Origin: Pseudomonadota bacterium
Lineage (GTDB): Bacteria; Pseudomonadota; Alphaproteobacteria; Rhizobiales; Hyphomicrobiaceae
Reading direction: 5' to 3'
DNA length: 10,498 nucleotides
Assembly: GCA_003242645.1 (NCBI GenBank)
Contig: QGVC01000103.1
Location: 1-10,498, forward strand
The position numbers and the translations under genes were made by a program. Shown piece after piece: positions 356 through 9,091 of the stretch; the stretch's first letter is position 1, and each line of letters begins with the position of its first letter. A model generated the notes under the pieces. It did not search any database. It was not told the origin of the DNA and saw only the letters and a list, made by a program, of their open reading frames with translations.

Positions 356-730
356 ATGCAGGCAGGTCCCCAGATGGAAATTCCGGAGCAGATCCGCGAG
401 ATGGCAGAACGGAACGTCGAGCAGGCGCGGGCTGCCTACAATCAGTTCCTGGACATGGCCCGGCAGGTTCAGGAGCTCGTGAACAAGTCGTCAGGGGCCA
501 TGGCGGAGTCGGTGGCGGAGATCCAAGCGCGTGCGCTGCGCTTTGCCGAGGAGAACGCAGAGGCAGGCTTCGAATTCGCCAGCGAGCTGGCGCGGGCCAA
601 GGATTTGAAGGAGTACCTCGAGATTCAGAGCCGCCATTCTCAGAAGCAGATGGACATATACGCCCGGCAGGCGGAGGAGCTTGGCCGCATGCTCAGCGAG
701 CTTGCCCAGAAGTCCCAGAACAAGCGCTGA
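356..730 (+). CDS. Phasin family protein
   Basis: This 124-residue protein matches the short phasins of Hyphomicrobiales (phasin_2 type), which coat polyhydroxyalkanoate granules and influence their number and size. Visible hallmarks are the N-terminal PEQIREMAERNVEQAR stretch (about residues 9-24), an almost wholly alpha-helical amphipathic composition, and the conserved-looking helix around residues 70-115 with DLKEYLEIQS and YARQAEELG. There is no signal peptide, membrane segment or proline-rich tail. I chose ATG 356 because GGAGG at 346-350 lies five bases upstream. An in-frame ATG at 344 has no such site, and the frame is open back to 254 without family-like sequence. The gene stands alone, upstream of tRNA-His, with no polymer synthase or depolymerase gene in view. 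Small size and helical bias make granule binding an inference from family similarity. Confidence 0.85.
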   Translation: MQAGPQMEIPEQIREMAERNVEQARAAYNQFLDMARQVQELVNKSSGAMAESVAEIQARALRFAEENAEAGFEFASELARAKDLKEYLEIQSRHSQKQMDIYARQAEELGRMLSELAQKSQNKR

Positions 731-807
731 GAGGCCGGCCGCAGCCCGGTCCTGCCGTGCCGGGGGCAGACACCTTGGCGCAGCTGCCCGGATGGGCTAT
801 TTAAGTC

Positions 808-836
808 TTGACGTCAGCGCCGCAGTGTCGCTTTTT
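808..836 (+). promoter_or_regulatory. Probable housekeeping promoter of the tRNA-His gene
   Basis: CTTGACG (the -35 core TTGACG at 808-813) is followed after 17 bases by CTTTTT at 831-836. This resembles alphaproteobacterial housekeeping promoters of the CTTGAC-N17-CTATAT kind, with a relaxed -10. Transcription would start near 842-844, about 14 bases before the mature tRNA 5' end, which is a usual leader length. Confidence 0.6.
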
Positions 837-856
837 GCGCCTGCGCCCACGCAAGC

Positions 857-933
857 GCCGCCTTAGCTCAGTTGGTTAGAGCACCAGATTGTGGATCTGG
901 GGGTCCCTGGTTCGAATCCAGGAGGCGGTACCA
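857..933 (+). tRNA. tRNA-His (anticodon GUG), CCA encoded
   Basis: All cloverleaf arms can be drawn. The acceptor is GCCGCCT (857-863) against AGGCGGT (923-929). The D-stem is GCTC/GAGC. The anticodon stem is CCAGA/TCTGG with loop TTGTGGA (anticodon 891-893), and the T-stem is CCTGG/CCAGG with loop TTCGAAT. The discriminator is A930 and CCA is encoded at 931-933. The base before the 5' end is C, so G-1 is not encoded, and the first pair is a G1:U72 wobble. Lack of G-1 with U72 and A73 is the known tRNA-His pattern of many Alphaproteobacteria, whose histidyl-tRNA synthetase reads these positions instead of G-1. The gene is intact and has foreign-looking DNA directly downstream. Confidence 0.97.
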
Positions 934-978
934 TCTCCTCAGTCGCGCTGCTCTTGCAGCCTTGTCCCTTCACCGATA

Positions 979-1002
979 CCTTGAGCGGCAAAATGCTCAG
1001 GG
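979..1002 (+). promoter_or_regulatory. Hairpin overlapping the ribosome binding site of the cassette's first gene
   Basis: CCTTGAGC (979-986) can pair with GCTCAGGG (995-1002), one pair being a wobble, around the 8-base loop GGCAAAAT. The 3' arm includes most of the AGGGGG ribosome binding site (999-1004) that precedes the GTG start at 1009. Folding would hide this site. It could equally be a dyad operator in DNA. Confidence 0.4.
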
Positions 1003-1008
1003 GGCGGT

Positions 1009-1815
1009 GTGATTAACTCACTAAGTGCTAACGATCTCGCCGAGCAGATACTCTCGTTATTGCCAGAAGACGGCGCGCCGGTTGGTCACCGTGTCATTCG
1101 TACCATGCTGGCTCGCCGACTGGAGTGTCGTATCGATCCGAACCTGTACTTCGAGGCAGTAGACCAACTAACGAAGGCGGGAATTATTGGTCGAGCGCGT
1201 GGGCGCGGTGGGAGCATTTTCTTAGCGGGAGCAACCGACGAGGTTGTCTCGCTTTCCCCGCCAGAACCTGCTGGGGCATGGAACGAAGCGCGTCTTATGG
1301 CGCCGCTGAAGCATTATCTCGAAAATTATTTCGGCCAGTCTCTCGACCTTCCCCCAGGATCCACGTGCATTGTCGCGGACACCTCTTCAAGAGGGCCAAA
1401 GAATGGACAGTGGGCGCGACCGGACTTCATATTTATCAGCATCATGCGTTTCCAGCTTCTACCGGGACGGCAGGTTGACGTGCATTCATTCGAACTGAAA
1501 GCTGAAGCCGGCGGCACCGTTCAGGCGGTCCACGAAGCTTTGGCACAAACGCGCTTCACCAACTTCGGACACCTCGTTTGGCATGTTCCATTCAATTCGA
1601 AAGCGGAAGCGAGGCTTCCCGAGATCGTCAACCAGTGCGAGAGGCATGGGATCGGCTTGCTCATTATTCGAGATCCGAACGATTATCAAACGTGGGAGAC
1701 GCTCGTCGATCCAACTCCGAAGAATACCAGTCCCGCGACGATAGATGCATTTCTCTTGTCGCGCCTCTCGGCTGAGCAACAAAACGAGTTAAGTAAAGCA
1801 ATTACGGAGCGTTAG
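1009..1815 (+). CDS. Winged-helix and PD-(D/E)XK nuclease-like protein
   Basis: I do not recognise this 268-residue protein as a named family. The N-terminal part (residues 8-75) looks like a winged-helix domain: predicted helices, then TKAGIIGRARGRGGSIFLA, a typical recognition-helix end and beta-wing. Residues 95-225 read like a PD-(D/E)XK nuclease core: a helix with Glu102/Glu105, then RPDFIF with Asp139, then SFELKAE with Glu162-x-Lys164. The helix EALAQTRF (177-184) and the strand HLVWHVP (188-194) follow. The order and spacing fit metal-dependent DNA cleavage, though activity is inferred. The start is GTG 1009, after AGGGGG at 999-1004; no ATG is available nearby. The ParA gene begins two bases after the stop. 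Possible roles are a restriction-like effector of a defence module or a DNA-processing protein of a mobile element. It has no methyltransferase neighbour. Confidence 0.6.
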   Translation: MINSLSANDLAEQILSLLPEDGAPVGHRVIRTMLARRLECRIDPNLYFEAVDQLTKAGIIGRARGRGGSIFLAGATDEVVSLSPPEPAGAWNEARLMAPLKHYLENYFGQSLDLPPGSTCIVADTSSRGPKNGQWARPDFIFISIMRFQLLPGRQVDVHSFELKAEAGGTVQAVHEALAQTRFTNFGHLVWHVPFNSKAEARLPEIVNQCERHGIGLLIIRDPNDYQTWETLVDPTPKNTSPATIDAFLLSRLSAEQQNELSKAITER

Positions 1816-1817
1816 TC

Positions 1818-2696
1818 TTGCCTGGTAGTATAATCGCAGTTGTGAATATGAAGGGCGGGGTTGGAAAGACAACAACAGTCGTAAGCCTTAGTGAAACATT
1901 AGCCGCTTTGGACGGCGAACCCGTCCTTGTGATTGACGTCGATGCTCAGGCGAGCGCCTCATATTGCCTCGCCGGGGATGAGGTTCTGACCAAGCTTATC
2001 AGGGAAGACCGTACTGTAGACGCATATTTTGAAGCGGCACTCCTGTATGGGCCACGCAAATCTATGACTGAGCTAATCTGCAATCAGGTTAGCGACGTAA
2101 CCCACAGGGGCGAAAACTTAAACCTTTCTCTTCTTGCATCGTCTTCCGAACTGCGCATCACGGAACGGGAAATAATACACAAACTCACAGAGAGGGGGTT
2201 TAGTCTTAATGCAATCGAAGGCCAAACGGAACGGCTGCTGCGCAAGGACCTTAATGAGCTTCGAGATTGCTACAAATACATTATTATAGATTGTGCTCCC
2301 GGCATCTCTGCGTTCACCGCGGCGGCGATAAGGGTAGCTGATCTAGTCGTTGTTCCTACTATTCCCGATTTCCTTTCTCATCTTGGGTTAACGGCTTTCG
2401 TAAAAAGAGTAATTCGCGAGAACCGTCCGCAGAACGATCATCGACTTCCTCGTGTTCTGATAACCAAGAAGCGACCAACAGTCCAGCACAACGAATATCT
2501 TCGATTGATGCGGGAGATGGCGGCAAGGCCGGGGTCTGAATTCTACGTGCTCAATACAGTGGTTCCGGAAACGGCTGCCCTTCCCCGGGCGTTGGAGCTA
2601 ATTGGCGAATATCCAACTTATGGACAAAAGTATCCCCCACCTCTCGCGGGTTTGTTGAGAGATTTGGCGGAAGAATTGAAAGAGGCACTGACATGA
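1818..2696 (+). CDS. ParA-family P-loop ATPase
   Basis: This 292-residue protein is a deviant-Walker ParA/MinD-type ATPase. The motif KGGVGKTT (residues 12-19) carries the signature Lys12 and the P-loop Lys17. VLVIDVDAQAS (36-46) is the Walker A' region, and YIIIDCAPG (154-162) contains Walker B Asp158. VVVPTIPDFLSHLGL (177-191) is the usual following segment. Such proteins dimerise on ATP, bind DNA non-specifically and move or position plasmids, chromosomes or protein cargo. It lacks the N-terminal helix-turn-helix extension of plasmid P1-type ParA and starts directly with the first beta strand. TTG 1818 is the start because GGAG (1806-1809) lies eight bases upstream and any later start would remove strand 1. 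It overlaps the next gene by ATGA, so the two are probably translationally coupled. No ParB with a recognisable domain is present. Confidence 0.88.
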   Translation: MPGSIIAVVNMKGGVGKTTTVVSLSETLAALDGEPVLVIDVDAQASASYCLAGDEVLTKLIREDRTVDAYFEAALLYGPRKSMTELICNQVSDVTHRGENLNLSLLASSSELRITEREIIHKLTERGFSLNAIEGQTERLLRKDLNELRDCYKYIIIDCAPGISAFTAAAIRVADLVVVPTIPDFLSHLGLTAFVKRVIRENRPQNDHRLPRVLITKKRPTVQHNEYLRLMREMAARPGSEFYVLNTVVPETAALPRALELIGEYPTYGQKYPPPLAGLLRDLAEELKEALT

Positions 2697-3169
2697 GCAC
2701 TACGCTAAATAGCGCCGAAGTTCTCCGGGCGATTGGAAGTAATCCAGATGCTTTTCCGGACGCAAAGGCTGAAATAGAGAAGGCGGCACTGGCTATTGTG
2801 AGTGCACAGCTGAAGGCTAGGAGTATCGATCTGGACAAACTTTCTACGGTCGCGAAGGTGTTGGGCTTGGACACTCTGGGGTTAGTGCTAGAGAGTTTGC
2901 CTGATAAGACAGTAGCGACCCTCACGAAGAAAATAGATCCACATCATCCTGAAGCAAAAAATGCTAGCGCAATCTGGCAGCGCAAACATCTGTGTGCTCT
3001 CGCTGCTGGAGATGCGAAACCATCCGAAAAGCCAGAGAGGAAGGCCGGTCCAAAGAAGGCGACCACTGGAAAGACTGGAGGGGCGAAAAGGAAGAGCGGT
3101 GCCGCATTTAATGAGGAAAACTTTTGGCCAACCTCAATGTCGGCGGTGGGAAGTCGCAAACAGCGGTGA
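2693..3169 (+). CDS. Small protein with lysine-rich tail, partner of ParA
   Basis: I cannot assign this 158-residue protein to a named family. Residues 5-105 look like a compact helical domain (EVLRAIGSN, KAEIEKAALAIVSAQLK, LDKLSTVAKVLGLD, DKTVATLTKKIDP). Residues 107-136 form a low-complexity tail rich in Lys, Pro, Gly and Ala (GPKKATTGKTGGAKRK), like basic tails that bind nucleic acid. The ATG lies inside the stop region of the ParA gene (ATGA, 2693-2696), which argues for coupled translation and a joint function. It could be a centromere-binding or adaptor protein that tethers ParA to DNA; this is an inference from context. The last dozen codons lie in DNA whose composition already resembles the core chromosome, so the native C-terminus may have been altered where the cassette joins the host sequence. 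Confidence 0.65.
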   Translation: MSTTLNSAEVLRAIGSNPDAFPDAKAEIEKAALAIVSAQLKARSIDLDKLSTVAKVLGLDTLGLVLESLPDKTVATLTKKIDPHHPEAKNASAIWQRKHLCALAAGDAKPSEKPERKAGPKKATTGKTGGAKRKSGAAFNEENFWPTSMSAVGSRKQR

Positions 3170-3203
3170 AGGCGCAGGCCGCCTGCCGGTCCTTTCCGGA
3201 TGG

Positions 3204-3223
3204 GCATGGAATTCTTGCCATGC
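3204..3223. terminator. Possible shared hairpin between convergent genes
   Basis: GCATGG and CCATGC form a 6-bp stem around an 8-base loop, in the 87-bp gap between the stop codons of the cassette's last gene and the M3 peptidase gene. It could act on both strands. No T-run flanks it on either side, so the call is tentative. Confidence 0.3.
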
Positions 3224-3256
3224 GTCGGCGAGTGGCGTGGTGGGGCAAGGCGGCTT

Positions 3257-5125
3257 CTAGACAAGTCGATCCAACGCCTCCAGCTCATCGATCATCCGCT
3301 CAATGACGTTCAGGCCCTTGTGCCAGAACTCGGGCTCGCGGGCGTCGAGGCCGAACGGGGCGAGTAGCTCCGAGTGGTGCTTGGAGCCGCCGGCTCTCAG
3401 CATGTCGAGGTATTTCTCAACGAACCTTGGATGAGCCTCCTCGTAAAGGGCGTAAAGCGAGTTCACGAGGCAATCGCCGAACGCGTACGCATAAACGTAG
3501 AACGGTGAGTGGATGAAGTGCGGGATATAGGTCCAGAAGACCTCGTAGCCTGGTTTCAGCTCGATGCCTGGCCCGAGGCTTTCGGCCTGCACCTCCATCC
3601 AAATCTCGTTGATCCGATCGGGCGTAAGCTCGCCCTGGCGCCGCTCTTCATGCACCTTGCGCTCGAACGTGTAGAACGCGATCTGCCGAACAACCGTGTT
3701 CAGCATATCCTCGACCTTCGAGGCCATCAGGGCCTTGCGCTCGCGCGGGTCCTTGGCGTCGGCGAGCAAAGCGCGGAAGGTCAACATCTCGCCGAAAACC
3801 GAGGCCGTTTCGGCCAGTGTCAGCGGAGTTTGGGAGAGCAATGGCCCAAGGGGCGCCGCAAGGACCTGATGCACACCGTGACCGAGCTCATGCGCCAAGG
3901 TCATCACGTCGCGCGGCTTGCCCTGGTAGTTCAGCAGCACGTAGGGGTGAACGGACGGCACCGTTGGATGCGAAAAGGCGCCCGGTGATTTGCCGGCCCG
4001 CACCGGCGCGTCGATCCAATTCTTGTCGAAGAACCGGCGGGCGATATCGGCCATTTCCGGCGAAAAATCCCGGTAAGCCTTAAGCACGATCTCCTGCGCC
4101 TCGGGCCACGGCACGATGCGCTCCGGCTTTTCCGGTAGCGGCGCATTCCGGTCCCAGTGCGCCAGCCGGTCTTTCCCGAGCCAACGCGCTTTTAGTTTGT
4201 AATAGCGGTGGGAAAGCTTCGGGTAGCTCGCGCGCACTGCGGAAACCATCGCATCGACGACTGGACCTTCGACCCGATTTGCCAGATGCCGGGAGTCAGC
4301 AACGTCCTTGAATTTCCGCCAGCGGTCGGAAATTTCCTTGTCCTTGGCGAGCGTGTTTGTAATCAGAGTGAAGAGACGAAGGTTTTCCTTGAAAACTTTC
4401 GCCAGCGCTTCGGCAGCGGCCCGGCGGCGTCCCTCGTCAGCGTGCGAGAGCAAATTAAGCGTCGGCTCGAGCGGCAGTGGCTCCGGCTCGCCTTCGACCG
4501 GAAAGCGTAGCGCTGCCATTGTTTCGTTGAATAAGCGATTCCAGGCACCGCGTGATGTCTGAGCCTTCTCGTGAAATAGCTGCTCCAGTTGCTCATCGAG
4601 CTGGTGGGGTTTTTCCTTGCGCAGATCGTCGAACCAAGGCTTGTAGCGCGCCAGATCGGGATGCTTGAGGGCTTCGGCCAGGTCCGCATCCTCGATCTTG
4701 TTGAGCTCTAGCTCGAAGAAAATGAGGTCGTTTGAGATATTCGTGAGCCGCTCGCTGGTATCGCCATAGAACTTGGCGCGCGCGGGGTCTGACTGATCGG
4801 CGGCGTAGAGCAGGCCCGCGTATGAGCCCAGCCGGCCCATGAGATCGGCGAGCTGCTCGTACTCCTTCACGGCCTGGGCGAGCTTTGCGCCGTCCCGCCC
4901 CATGGCGACGAGTTGGCCCTGGTAGGTCTGCTTGAACCGCTTGGCCTGGGCGGCAGCAGCGGCGAAGTCCCGCTCGACTTCCGGGGAGTCGGGAGATGGA
5001 TAGAGATCGGTGAGATCCCATTCCGGCATGGGGCCGAGGTCGACGCTGGGGCTCGCGGAGGATGCAGCGCCGGCCTGTGCCATGCACATCGGCTGCTTGA
5101 TGACCTTGGTCTGCTCGGCGGTCAT
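3257..5125 (-). CDS. pepF: M3B family oligoendopeptidase (PepF-like)
   Basis: This 622-residue zinc metallopeptidase would cleave short peptides, probably in the cytoplasm because no signal peptide is seen. The M3 zinc site is complete: HELGH at residues 412-416 (zinc ligands His412 and His416, catalytic Glu413), and the third ligand is probably Glu439 in TLAETAS. The oligoendopeptidase F subfamily is indicated by the length (about 600), the entry motif WDLTDLYPSPDSP (36-48), WIDAPVRAGKSPGAFS (370-385) upstream of the zinc motif, and HSPFYVYAYAFGD (539-551) after it. ATG 5125 is preceded on the minus strand by GGGAG with suitable spacing. The gene converges on the accessory cassette and diverges from the response regulator gene, so it is likely monocistronic. 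Proposed roles in this family are peptide turnover and, in some bacteria, signal-peptide degradation; the substrate here is unknown. Codon use matches the core genes. Confidence 0.93.
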   Translation of the reverse strand: MTAEQTKVIKQPMCMAQAGAASSASPSVDLGPMPEWDLTDLYPSPDSPEVERDFAAAAAQAKRFKQTYQGQLVAMGRDGAKLAQAVKEYEQLADLMGRLGSYAGLLYAADQSDPARAKFYGDTSERLTNISNDLIFFELELNKIEDADLAEALKHPDLARYKPWFDDLRKEKPHQLDEQLEQLFHEKAQTSRGAWNRLFNETMAALRFPVEGEPEPLPLEPTLNLLSHADEGRRRAAAEALAKVFKENLRLFTLITNTLAKDKEISDRWRKFKDVADSRHLANRVEGPVVDAMVSAVRASYPKLSHRYYKLKARWLGKDRLAHWDRNAPLPEKPERIVPWPEAQEIVLKAYRDFSPEMADIARRFFDKNWIDAPVRAGKSPGAFSHPTVPSVHPYVLLNYQGKPRDVMTLAHELGHGVHQVLAAPLGPLLSQTPLTLAETASVFGEMLTFRALLADAKDPRERKALMASKVEDMLNTVVRQIAFYTFERKVHEERRQGELTPDRINEIWMEVQAESLGPGIELKPGYEVFWTYIPHFIHSPFYVYAYAFGDCLVNSLYALYEEAHPRFVEKYLDMLRAGGSKHHSELLAPFGLDAREPEFWHKGLNVIERMIDELEALDRLV

Positions 5126-6868: not shown

Positions 6869-6987
6869 GGTGAGAGATCACGTTTTGTTTAGCATCGCGA
6901 AGGGCCATTGAACGGAGCGTCTGTCTTTCCGGTCACAGTTCCGACAAAAGAAGATTCTCAGGAAAGATCAGGCGTGTAACTGTTGCT

Positions 6988-7021
6988 GGCTGAGCCGAAG
7001 CAAGGTACGTACGGCTCAGCC
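6988..7021 (+). promoter_or_regulatory. 10-bp leader hairpin just before the L,D-transpeptidase ribosome binding site
   Basis: GGCTGAGCCG (6988-6997) and CGGCTCAGCC (7012-7021) are perfect inverted repeats around a 14-base loop. The loop, with the first base of the right arm, contains the small palindrome GTACGTAC (7005-7012). The GGAGG of the downstream gene begins only four bases after the stem. Without a T-run it is not a standard terminator of the upstream regulator gene. It could be a translation-controlling RNA structure, an mRNA stabiliser or a dyad operator. Confidence 0.55.
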
Positions 7022-7036
7022 GCATGGAGGACCCTG

Positions 7037-9091
7037 ATGCGACCTGCTTGGACCCTGCTCTCCGGACTGGCGCTGTCCGCCGTCTTGACAAGTGCAGCAT
7101 TCGCGACGGCGGAGCCGGAGCGCAGCGAAGCAGGCGAGGTCGGCGCGCCAGCTGTGGCGGCGCCGGTGAGCGGTGCAACTGACGCAGTTTCAGCTGAGCA
7201 GGCTGAAGAGGCGCCGAAAGCTGAAGGGCCGGCTACAGCGGCGGTCGAGCCGCGCGAAAGTGAAGCTGCTGGCCATTCACCTGAGCCGGAGACGGACGAC
7301 CCGGCCACGAGCGACACGGCGAGTGGGTTCGAGGATCCCGAGTCTCAGTCGGAGCCAACAGGCCTGGCGCTCGAGCCTGAGTCTGAAAATCCGGCCACGC
7401 CGGAGGAAGCCGTAGCCGATCCAGGCCTTGACACGGCTCCTGAGCAGGAAGCAGCGGAGGCCGCCGAGCCGGTCGGTGACGAGCCAGCTCAATCGGAGGC
7501 CGCTGAACTCGACTCGGGAAAGATCGTATCTGAGCAGTCTGGTACTGCCCCGGAGCCGGAGGCGGCCTCGACCTCAAGCACGGCGGAAGCAGTTGAGCCG
7601 CTGCCGACGGTGAGCAAGTTCGAGGCTGAAATTCTGCGGCACATCTCCGAGGCGAAAGGCTTGAAAGCCGAGGACCGTGATGCTCTGACGGCTTTCTATC
7701 AAGGTCGCGGCGATAATCTGCTCTGGATTGAGGGCGGGAAATTCAACACCCGCGCTGAAACGGCGATAGCTGAAATCCAGCGCGCCGACGATTGGGGTCT
7801 CGAAGCGTCTGCATTCGAGCTGCCTTCGGCGCCTCAGTCAGATGATCCAGCCCAGGTCGCGAAAGCCGAGCTTCAGCTGTCGCTCGCTGTGCTGAAGTAT
7901 GCCAATCACGCACGCGGTGGGCGCATGGATCCGCGGCAGCTTTCGAATTACATCGATCGCGAGCCGCCTCTGCTGCCCCCTTCTGACGTTCTAGCGGGAA
8001 TTGCTCGGGCGGATGCGGCCGATGCCTATTTGCGGGGCTTGCATCCAAAACATCCGCAGTTCGAGAAGCTTCGCCAAGCCTACCTGGACATCAAGCACCA
8101 GCGGCTACCGGTTGAGGAAGCCGAAGCGGACGTTGCTCCCGATGCCAAAGCGCGCAAGGCGAAGCGCGGGAATCGGGACACGAACGAAGCGAAGCTGCGC
8201 AAGATCCTCCACAATATGGAGCAATGGCGTTGGATGCCGGAGGATCTCGGCCAGTTCTACGTTTGGGCGAACATTCCCGAGTTCACGCTTCGGGTCGTGC
8301 AAAATGGCAAGATGATCCATTCGGAGCGTCTGATCGTCGGCAAGCCGGATACGCAAACGCCGATTTTCTCAGACGAGATGGAGACGATCGTCTTCCACCC
8401 GTACTGGGCGGTGCCGAACAGCATCAAGGTCAAGGAGATCCTGCCGGGGTTGATCCGCGGCACCAACATTCTCGAGCGGAATAATCTGCGGATACAGTAT
8501 CGCGGCCGCGACATCGATCCATGGAGCGTCGACTGGCGGCGGACGGATATTCGCAATTTCCACGTCTACCAGCCACCGGGCTCTGGCAACGTGCTCGGCG
8601 TGGTCAAGTTCTTGTTCCCGAACAAGCACGCCGTGTACATGCATGATACCCCGACAAAGCACCTTTTCGCGAGGCCGCAGCGCATGTTCAGCCACGGCTG
8701 TATGCGCGTCCGCGATCCCTTGAAGTTCGCCGAAATTCTGCTCGCCTATGACAAGGGCTGGGATCGCAGCCAAGTGGAATGGCTGGTCCGGCGTGGTCCG
8801 CGCGACAATCATGTCAAATTGGACAAGAAGATTCCCGTCCACATCACCTATTTTACCGCCTGGGTTGATGATGACGGGAAGCTGAAGACGGTGGCCGACG
8901 TCTACGGGCACGAGGAGCTGATCCAAATGGGCCTGGAAGGCAAGGCGCATCTCATCGCCCGCAAGAAGGAGGATTTGGGCGCCATTCGAGCGGAGGTTGT
9001 CAGCCGTCTCGCCGAGACGTCCCCGACCTGGACATATCCTTCGTCTTCTTCACGTCAGCCGGATTGGGTGCGCCGCGTGTTCGGCCACTGA
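7037..9091 (+). CDS. L,D-transpeptidase, YcbB/LdtD-like, with acidic spacer
   Basis: This exported enzyme of 684 residues should form 3-3 (meso-diaminopimelate) cross-links in peptidoglycan. Residues 1-24 are a signal peptide (basic start, hydrophobic core, Ala-rich end, likely cleavage at AFA or ATA). Residues 25-188 are an unusual Glu/Ala/Pro-rich spacer with about 40 acidic and only four basic residues. The scaffold region follows from about 192 (EILRHISEAKGL, RGDNLLWIEGG). The YkuD catalytic domain spans about 405-570, with MHDTP (His536) and FSHGCMRV, where Cys555 is the nucleophile and His553 its neighbour. This arrangement matches LdtD/YcbB, including the insertion between NGKMIHS and the active site. 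ATG 7037 has GGAGG at 7026-7030 and restores a clean signal peptide; a longer frame from 6983 would place the leader hairpin inside the gene. A strong hairpin follows the stop. YcbB-like enzymes act in the periplasm and tolerate penicillins. Confidence 0.93.
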   Translation: MRPAWTLLSGLALSAVLTSAAFATAEPERSEAGEVGAPAVAAPVSGATDAVSAEQAEEAPKAEGPATAAVEPRESEAAGHSPEPETDDPATSDTASGFEDPESQSEPTGLALEPESENPATPEEAVADPGLDTAPEQEAAEAAEPVGDEPAQSEAAELDSGKIVSEQSGTAPEPEAASTSSTAEAVEPLPTVSKFEAEILRHISEAKGLKAEDRDALTAFYQGRGDNLLWIEGGKFNTRAETAIAEIQRADDWGLEASAFELPSAPQSDDPAQVAKAELQLSLAVLKYANHARGGRMDPRQLSNYIDREPPLLPPSDVLAGIARADAADAYLRGLHPKHPQFEKLRQAYLDIKHQRLPVEEAEADVAPDAKARKAKRGNRDTNEAKLRKILHNMEQWRWMPEDLGQFYVWANIPEFTLRVVQNGKMIHSERLIVGKPDTQTPIFSDEMETIVFHPYWAVPNSIKVKEILPGLIRGTNILERNNLRIQYRGRDIDPWSVDWRRTDIRNFHVYQPPGSGNVLGVVKFLFPNKHAVYMHDTPTKHLFARPQRMFSHGCMRVRDPLKFAEILLAYDKGWDRSQVEWLVRRGPRDNHVKLDKKIPVHITYFTAWVDDDGKLKTVADVYGHEELIQMGLEGKAHLIARKKEDLGAIRAEVVSRLAETSPTWTYPSSSSRQPDWVRRVFGH

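Follow-up and report, generated by a model that had tools for sequence, protein, structure and literature searches.

What function unites a nuclease, a ParA-type ATPase and a small protein with a basic tail when their genes form one compact cassette of about 2.2 kb? The question is raised by the window, the whole stretch of 10,498 nucleotides that was analysed, in which a sequence-only reading had pointed to three closely spaced plus-strand genes of lower G+C content than both flanks, behind an intact tRNA gene. These observations hold: genes 1 and 2 are separated by a 2-base gap, genes 2 and 3 are joined by an ATGA overlap, the G+C content per 500-base step is 0.48-0.56 within the cassette versus about 0.58-0.66 on the flanks, and an intact tRNA-His gene lies upstream. 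The features are as follows:

857-933: intact tRNA-His gene
1009-1815, + strand: gene 1, GTG start, 268 aa (ORF call, homologues, structure model, fold matches)
1009-1236, + strand: predicted winged-helix domain, residues 1-76 of gene 1
1276-1806, + strand: predicted PD-(D/E)XK nuclease domain, about residues 90-266 of gene 1
1423-1500, + strand: predicted catalytic stretch D139 ... E162-x-K164, invariant in nuclease alignments
1818-2696, + strand: gene 2, TTG start, 292 aa, ParA-type ATPase (AAA_31, conserved Walker residues)
1851-1871, + strand: deviant Walker A motif KGGVGKT of gene 2, with signature lysine K12, plus K17
2693-3169, + strand: gene 3, ATG start, 158 aa, homologues keep the same position
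2711-3007, + strand: residues 7-105 of gene 3, a helical core in which six helices are predicted; pLDDT in ten-residue steps about 80-92
3008-3166, + strand: basic tail of gene 3, 53 residues, net charge +8

The neighbors of the cassette are a phasin gene upstream and, downstream, genes for an M3 peptidase, a sigma-54 response regulator, an L,D-transpeptidase and an M15-type peptidase. The L,D-transpeptidase (window 6983-9091) carries a long acidic low-complexity stretch past its N-terminus and is otherwise ordinary. The tRNA, noted directly in front of the cassette in the sequence-only reading, has no counterpart elsewhere: ARAGORN found no tRNA gene near the cassette at any of 17 related loci (3.9-16.8 kb of DNA per locus), and the 3' end of the tRNA-His is not repeated within the window. 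The tRNA is thus an incidental neighbor and not a part of the cassette, and tRNA-directed integration was rejected on the same observations.

Domain architecture of the three proteins

Based on its structure model (mean pLDDT 89.4), gene 1 is a winged helix fused to a predicted PD-(D/E)XK nuclease. The model has a restriction-endonuclease-like fold and matches the nuclease folds of PaqCI, AF2093 (2ph7) and MspJI/AspBHI, proteins with which gene 1 has the fold in common but which differ from it in their partners; no PDB sequence match was better than E 0.21. Its homologues number 440 at E 1e-3, 120 of them listed, and the predicted catalytic residues D139, E162 and K164 are invariant in 30/30 close and 15/15 divergent rows of the alignments, in agreement with the nuclease assignment made from the sequence alone.

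The ParA assignment of gene 2 is likewise borne out, by a match to AAA_31 (E 1e-31) and by the full set of ParA/MinD ATPase features, namely the deviant Walker A motif, the signature lysine and the switch and Walker B aspartates. In the ParA alignment K17, D40, D42 and D158 are invariant in 13/13 rows and the signature lysine K12 is present in 12/13; the ParA of locus L009 has a threonine at the K12 position and thus lacks this lysine. Gene 2 shares the deviant Walker A and the AAA_31 domain with partition ParAs and McdA-type positioning ATPases, but differs from them in scoring only 86.1 bits on the NCBIfam ParA_partition equivalog (cut-off 180), in having a partner that is not recognisably ParB and in being coupled to a nuclease. 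Among the three proteins it alone matches PHROG, and its PADLOC match, to PDC-M28B (E 8e-6), is limited to about 40 residues of the Walker region. In four of five module genomes the module ParA is the sole match of its own profile at E 1e-30, and the fifth has one extra.

A ParA tree places 24 module ParAs on one side of a branch and 10 plasmid ParAs (chosen among 30 listed of 726 records) on the other, with support 96/90; L039, whose ParA is cut by the contig end, was left out. The ParAs of the close modules do not form one clade in the best tree, and a constrained tree that unites them is not rejected (p 0.554). Four ParAs of distant modules (L041-L044) lie nearer to the plasmid ParAs than those of the close modules do (90/97).

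Up to E 1 the third protein matches nothing in Pfam, PHROG or PADLOC. It matches no ParB family of the kind that would supply a ParABS partner and has no clear PDB match, and NCBIfam gave only one chance-level row (E 0.078). Its model has a mean pLDDT of 75.7, and the tail is predicted to be disordered at least from residue 124 (pLDDT <50 for residues 124-158). The small protein with a basic tail that had been noticed in the window is a general feature, as the tails are net positive in 19/19 modules. The small protein of L009 (L009:9213-9932) is 239 aa long and by eye contains a second copy of part of the core.

A conserved alphaproteobacterial module

One pattern-based scan of GTDB genomes with a nuclease alignment yielded 17 loci (L001-L017), 16 of them labelled as Hyphomicrobiales groups and one as Rhodobacteraceae. 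ParA is the next gene after the nuclease in all 17, and all three genes are intact and in the same order in 16, the exception being the broken L017, so that the co-occurrence across genera that the sequence-only reading had asked about was indeed found. The small gene was located by tblastn in 14 of the 17 loci and by position in L005 and L013. Across the window and L001-L016 the start of the small gene overlaps the stop of ParA in 17/17 cases, and that of ParA overlaps the stop of the nuclease in 13/17, with gaps of 2 bases in the window and L001, 14 in L009 and >50 in L015; for L008 the ParA start was chosen by us. The G+C content of the cassette is below that of both flanks in 14 of the 17 loci, in some by a small margin; it is not lower than both in L007 and L015, and L016 is without a right flank. 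Genome searches added two more full modules, L128 and L137. The three genes thus constitute a conserved module across different alphaproteobacterial genera, beyond what chance would give.

Within these groups the module is sparse. Profile matches were obtained in 10/397 genomes of one order, 6/199 and 11/149 genomes of two families and 2/16 genomes of one genus, several of them being distant, short or confined to the winged helix; full-length close matches (E <1e-100) occur in 2, 3 and 7 genomes of the order and the two family sets, respectively. The weak nuclease matches G484, G544, G631 (second match), G797 and G1110 lie outside the set of loci that were compared with their flanks.

More distant nuclease relatives (about 26-35% identity; six loci, L039-L044) still precede a ParA. 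A third small gene follows the ParA in L040, L041 and L044, none was seen behind the ParA in L042 and L043, and the contig of L039 ends in ParA; when compared with the small family by hhalign, the third genes of L040 and L041 score a probability of just 1.2. In a nuclease tree of 48 rows, a fork with support 84/89 holds 26 rows, 25 of which have a ParA, and none of the 22 rows outside it is ParA-linked. The sole unlinked row within the fork is L038, with an aberrant C-terminus. The tree needs two changes of the ParA label versus a mean of 16.3 after shuffling (0/500 shuffles as low), although its long branches make some placements uncertain. It leaves out L075 (interrupted frame), L085 (short), L017 (broken), L140 (a remnant) and the repeats L027 (match figures as L001), L129 (identical to L003) and L138 (same place as L013). 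Around 20 more distant nuclease relatives (L074-L093, with the stretches of L076, L084, L087 and L089 cut by contig ends) no ORF matched the ParA profile at E 1e-3; a link to ParA general to the whole nuclease family was therefore rejected, and the link is confined to one clade of nucleases.

Decayed copies were also encountered: L017 (L017:1070-2400) has a disrupted ParA and small gene, L140 (L140:6986-7162) is a nuclease remnant of 58 aa, and L038 (L038:7929-8843) is a lone nuclease with the aberrant end mentioned above.

Exchange and joint divergence of ParA and the small protein

In one genus, two metagenome genomes (L005 and L006) carry modules that differ in a localized manner. Their DNA matches by blastn at 92.9% over positions 1-5977 of L005, a stretch spanning the flank upstream, the nuclease gene and the first part of ParA; a second match, at 93.4%, runs from position 7260 onward. 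The nuclease proteins are 95.9% identical, whereas overall identity is 51% for ParA and 41% for the small protein. Of the first 54 ParA residues 53 are identical, after which identity drops, so that the exchanged part begins somewhere within residues 55-68; in L005 it ends about 50 bases past the stop of the small gene. Judging from these sequences, ParA from about residue 55 and the small gene appear to have been replaced as one block in this pair while the nuclease was kept. By analogy, the part of the window that would correspond to the replaced block is:

1980-3169, + strand: ParA from residue 55 on, together with all of gene 3

As these are assembled contigs, a simple chimera was considered as the source of the difference; it does not fit, because the two contigs agree in their flanks on either side of the block. 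L005 and L006 are sisters in the nuclease tree (100/100), and in the ParA tree L006 groups with L011 of Xanthobacter whereas L005 does not, with weak support (62/99).

ParA and the small protein also diverge together in the module at large. In partial Mantel comparisons of 19 modules, with the broken L017 left out and host kinship uncontrolled, the correlation of ParA and small protein given the nuclease is 0.64 (0/2000 permutations as high), that of nuclease and ParA given the small protein is 0.41 (0/2000), and that of nuclease and small protein given ParA is 0.05 (669/2000); the picture is unchanged without L006 or without L005, L006 and L128. A second kind of mosaic is present in two pairs in which ParA is more alike than the nuclease and the small protein: L007/L008 (ParA 80%, nuclease 64%, small protein 60%) and L015/L016 (78%, 66% and 66%), from a pairwise identity set that likewise leaves out L017 and still contained the duplicate L129. 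Hence, ParA can also move separately from the small gene.

Genomic context

The chromosomal neighbors differ between loci. Of ten flanking proteins scanned at seven other loci, most look like housekeeping products (among them CTP synthase, carbamoyltransferase, HPr kinase and an FtsH-type peptidase), and none of the ten matched PADLOC at 1e-5. The cassettes of L010 and L128 occupy one common site, in a genus in which all 16 genomes retain at least part of the flank DNA, G1283 and G1285 only a third of it. Of the 14 cassette-free genomes 12 were compared, and in all 12 the two flanks lie 27 bases to 1.84 kb apart and the cassette is unmatched; in L128 about 2.6 kb of other DNA separates the flank on the ftsH side from the cassette. 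In this Rhodopseudomonas-like genus the stretch behind ftsH (named by eye; L128:3896-8961, L160-L171) is a variable spot that holds the cassette, ordinary-looking genes (also named by eye) or almost nothing.

Among 72,556 plasmid records the nuclease has only two partial distant matches and no close relative, and phages gave no match; in IMG/VR five pattern matches were obtained, none confirmed. With PHROG matching ParA only, a phage or viral gene set was rejected as the identity of the cassette. Within window positions 700-3400 the only repeats are two direct ones and an imperfect inverted one, each of 14 bases, and none of them marks the ends of the cassette on both sides.

The winged helix also occurs outside the module. 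On its own it is matched at the N-terminal end of larger proteins, about 1045-1100 aa long; of four such proteins, the three that were scanned (those of L045, L141 and L142) are type III-like N6/N4 DNA methylases, the one in L045 adjoining a ResIII gene. These winged-helix proteins, 1045-1086 aa in length, are at L045:8001-11225, L141:4735-7995, L142:5998-9246 and L143:3998-7135. A ParA-less relative of the nuclease, L130 (L130:4868-11622), has a ResIII gene on one side and a type III methyltransferase gene on the other. Another ParA-less member of the family, L078 (L078:4863-8892), overlaps the end of a type I R-like gene. As no recognisable restriction gene lies next to the other ParA-less relatives, this neighborhood is a tendency and not a rule.

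The N-terminal winged helix, matched by the module profiles, is thus common to the cassette and the type III restriction-modification loci L045, L141 and L142; unlike these, the window cassette has neither a methyltransferase nor a ResIII helicase among its ORFs and Pfam matches, and so does not contain the methyltransferase and helicase subunits that a type I or III restriction-modification operon requires. McrBC-like systems combine an NTP-driven switch with a nuclease subunit, and the cassette likewise does so, with ParA in place of a McrB-type NTPase and with ParA and the small protein as its replaced half; systems of an McrBC-like NTPase and a PD-(D/E)XK subunit are mentioned in PMC11037411. 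That paper also describes winged helices that, when fused to nucleases, can read 6-methyladenine or DNA modification, as in the type IV 6mA-dependent winged-helix fusion endonucleases FcyTI and Psp4BI. These also join a winged helix and a PD-(D/E)XK domain in one protein, but in the cassette the winged helix is N-terminal and the nuclease is tied to ParA and the small protein; the term ParA is absent from the main text of PMC11037411. In light of the winged helix in restriction genes and of 6-methyladenine reading, the cassette would most likely belong in DNA restriction.

PADLOC 2.0.0 (library of 2023) contains no named defence system that matches the cassette, and the nuclease and the small protein have 0 matches there. 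More generally, we found no family or named system that combines ParA and a nuclease in one conserved cassette in Pfam, PADLOC 2023, NCBIfam or PHROG, and none of the papers listed for the subject describes one. The sequence-only reading was therefore right in placing the cassette outside both the known partition loci, gene 2 falling below the partition cut-off, and the named defence systems; against defence catalogues later than PADLOC 2023 it could prove to be a variant of an ATPase-nuclease restriction system.

Alternative explanations

The main alternative offered by the sequence-only reading, a decayed plasmid maintenance module, and its relative, a domesticated partition locus, would account for a ParA family member, for the G+C content below both flanks in the window and at 14/17 loci, and for the ParAs of L041-L044, which lie nearer to those of plasmids than the close-module ParAs do. 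We nevertheless consider it very improbable, as the split of 24 module ParAs from 10 plasmid ParAs, the near absence of the nuclease from plasmids and the three intact ORFs in 16/17 loci already contradict it; furthermore, ParB or RepB is annotated beside the plasmid ParA in four of eight stretches compared (two of the eight being without annotation), whereas gene 3 matches no ParB family. Mobility or homing, in which the nuclease would cut target DNA for insertion of the cassette while the other two proteins help to select the target, is highly unlikely. It would suit the differing chromosomal neighbors, the sites without a cassette and the annotated site-specific integrase that adjoins the distant ParA-less relative L018 on a plasmid; yet in the window no repeats bound the cassette on both sides, the winged-helix relatives sit in restriction operons, and the shared site of L010 and L128 fits ordinary recombination.

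Alternatively, the cassette might be a selfish module akin to toxin-antitoxin systems, in which ParA and the small protein act as a cognate restraint, not a target reader, on a host-toxic nuclease and the cassette thereby maintains itself in genomes. Its compactness, its sparse occurrence and absence from related sites, and the joint divergence of ParA and the small protein would all agree with this. If the restraint fits the nuclease directly, however, replacement of both beside a nearly unchanged nuclease should free the toxin, an objection that fails if the contact sits in roughly the first 54 residues of ParA, which were kept. Known toxin-antitoxin pairs are, to our knowledge, unlike a set of three genes with a ParA, and we regard this explanation as unlikely. 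Nucleoid positioning or housekeeping DNA processing is a further candidate: ParA family ATPases position many cargos, and ParA and its partner might, as McdAB does with carboxysomes, position along the chromosome a nuclease that repairs or processes DNA. The basic tails of 19/19 small proteins recall the N-terminal lysines of McdB that matter for McdA binding (PMC12204374). This reading is distinctly unlikely too, as both the very patchy presence noted above (down to 2/16 genomes of one genus), unlike that of a housekeeping function, and the block replacement of ParA and the small gene in L005/L006 speak against it.

A proposed DNA-interference module

The conserved cassette and its replaced ParA-partner half point to an undescribed DNA-interference system. 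We propose that it is a chromosomal, restriction-like module of three proteins in which the nuclease is constant and the ParA-partner unit exchangeable, a reading to which we give an even chance. Gene 1 would be the constant effector, its winged helix contacting DNA and the fused PD-(D/E)XK domain cutting it. As expected from its family, ParA would bind DNA as an ATP dimer and serve as a switch. Gene 3 would be the cognate partner, whose core and flexible basic tail might dock on ParA and set its ATPase cycle; the tail is a candidate for the ParA contact, comparable to the lysines in the first 20 residues of McdB that matter for McdA binding (PMC12204374). ParA and gene 3 together would form a recognition or licensing half that decides when or where the nuclease cuts and that could be exchanged between strains while the nuclease is kept. 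Such replacement would be possible because ParA is proposed to contact both other proteins, perhaps meeting the nuclease through the kept first part of its sequence.

The evidence for this DNA-interference reading is the composition of the cassette, its conserved operon, the catalytic and Walker residues, one block exchange, the coupled divergence and the patchy presence, with cassette-free sites; the winged helix and the block exchange go beyond what the sequence-only reading had noticed. From these we infer the cutting of invader DNA, the contact between ParA and its partner and the role of the two as a recognition unit. On the other side, the flanks are mostly housekeeping-like and not defence islands, with 0/10 proteins matching PADLOC, and no mark that separates self from non-self is visible, the window module being without a methyltransferase. 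The exchange comes from one pair of metagenome assemblies, and ParA but not the small protein is alike in L007/L008 and L015/L016. The lost signature lysine of the L009 ParA, the distant members that do not all have a third gene, the low hhalign probability of L040 and L041 and the lack of a clear PDB match for the small protein also count against the reading. On the sequence evidence a defence role is plausible. In a more ambitious version, which is improbable but worth stating, the module would be a programmable anti-invader system: the ParA switch and its cognate partner would be the exchangeable recognition unit for the constant nuclease, perhaps reading complexes that invading plasmids or phages form for partition or replication, and strains would retarget it through exchange of this two-protein block.

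ParA ATPases are known for moving DNA and organelles. If our proposal is true, a ParA-nuclease cassette with a replaceable half would represent a new kind of switch in bacterial DNA defence or control, and it would open a new way to examine what keeps ParA-partner pairs specific.
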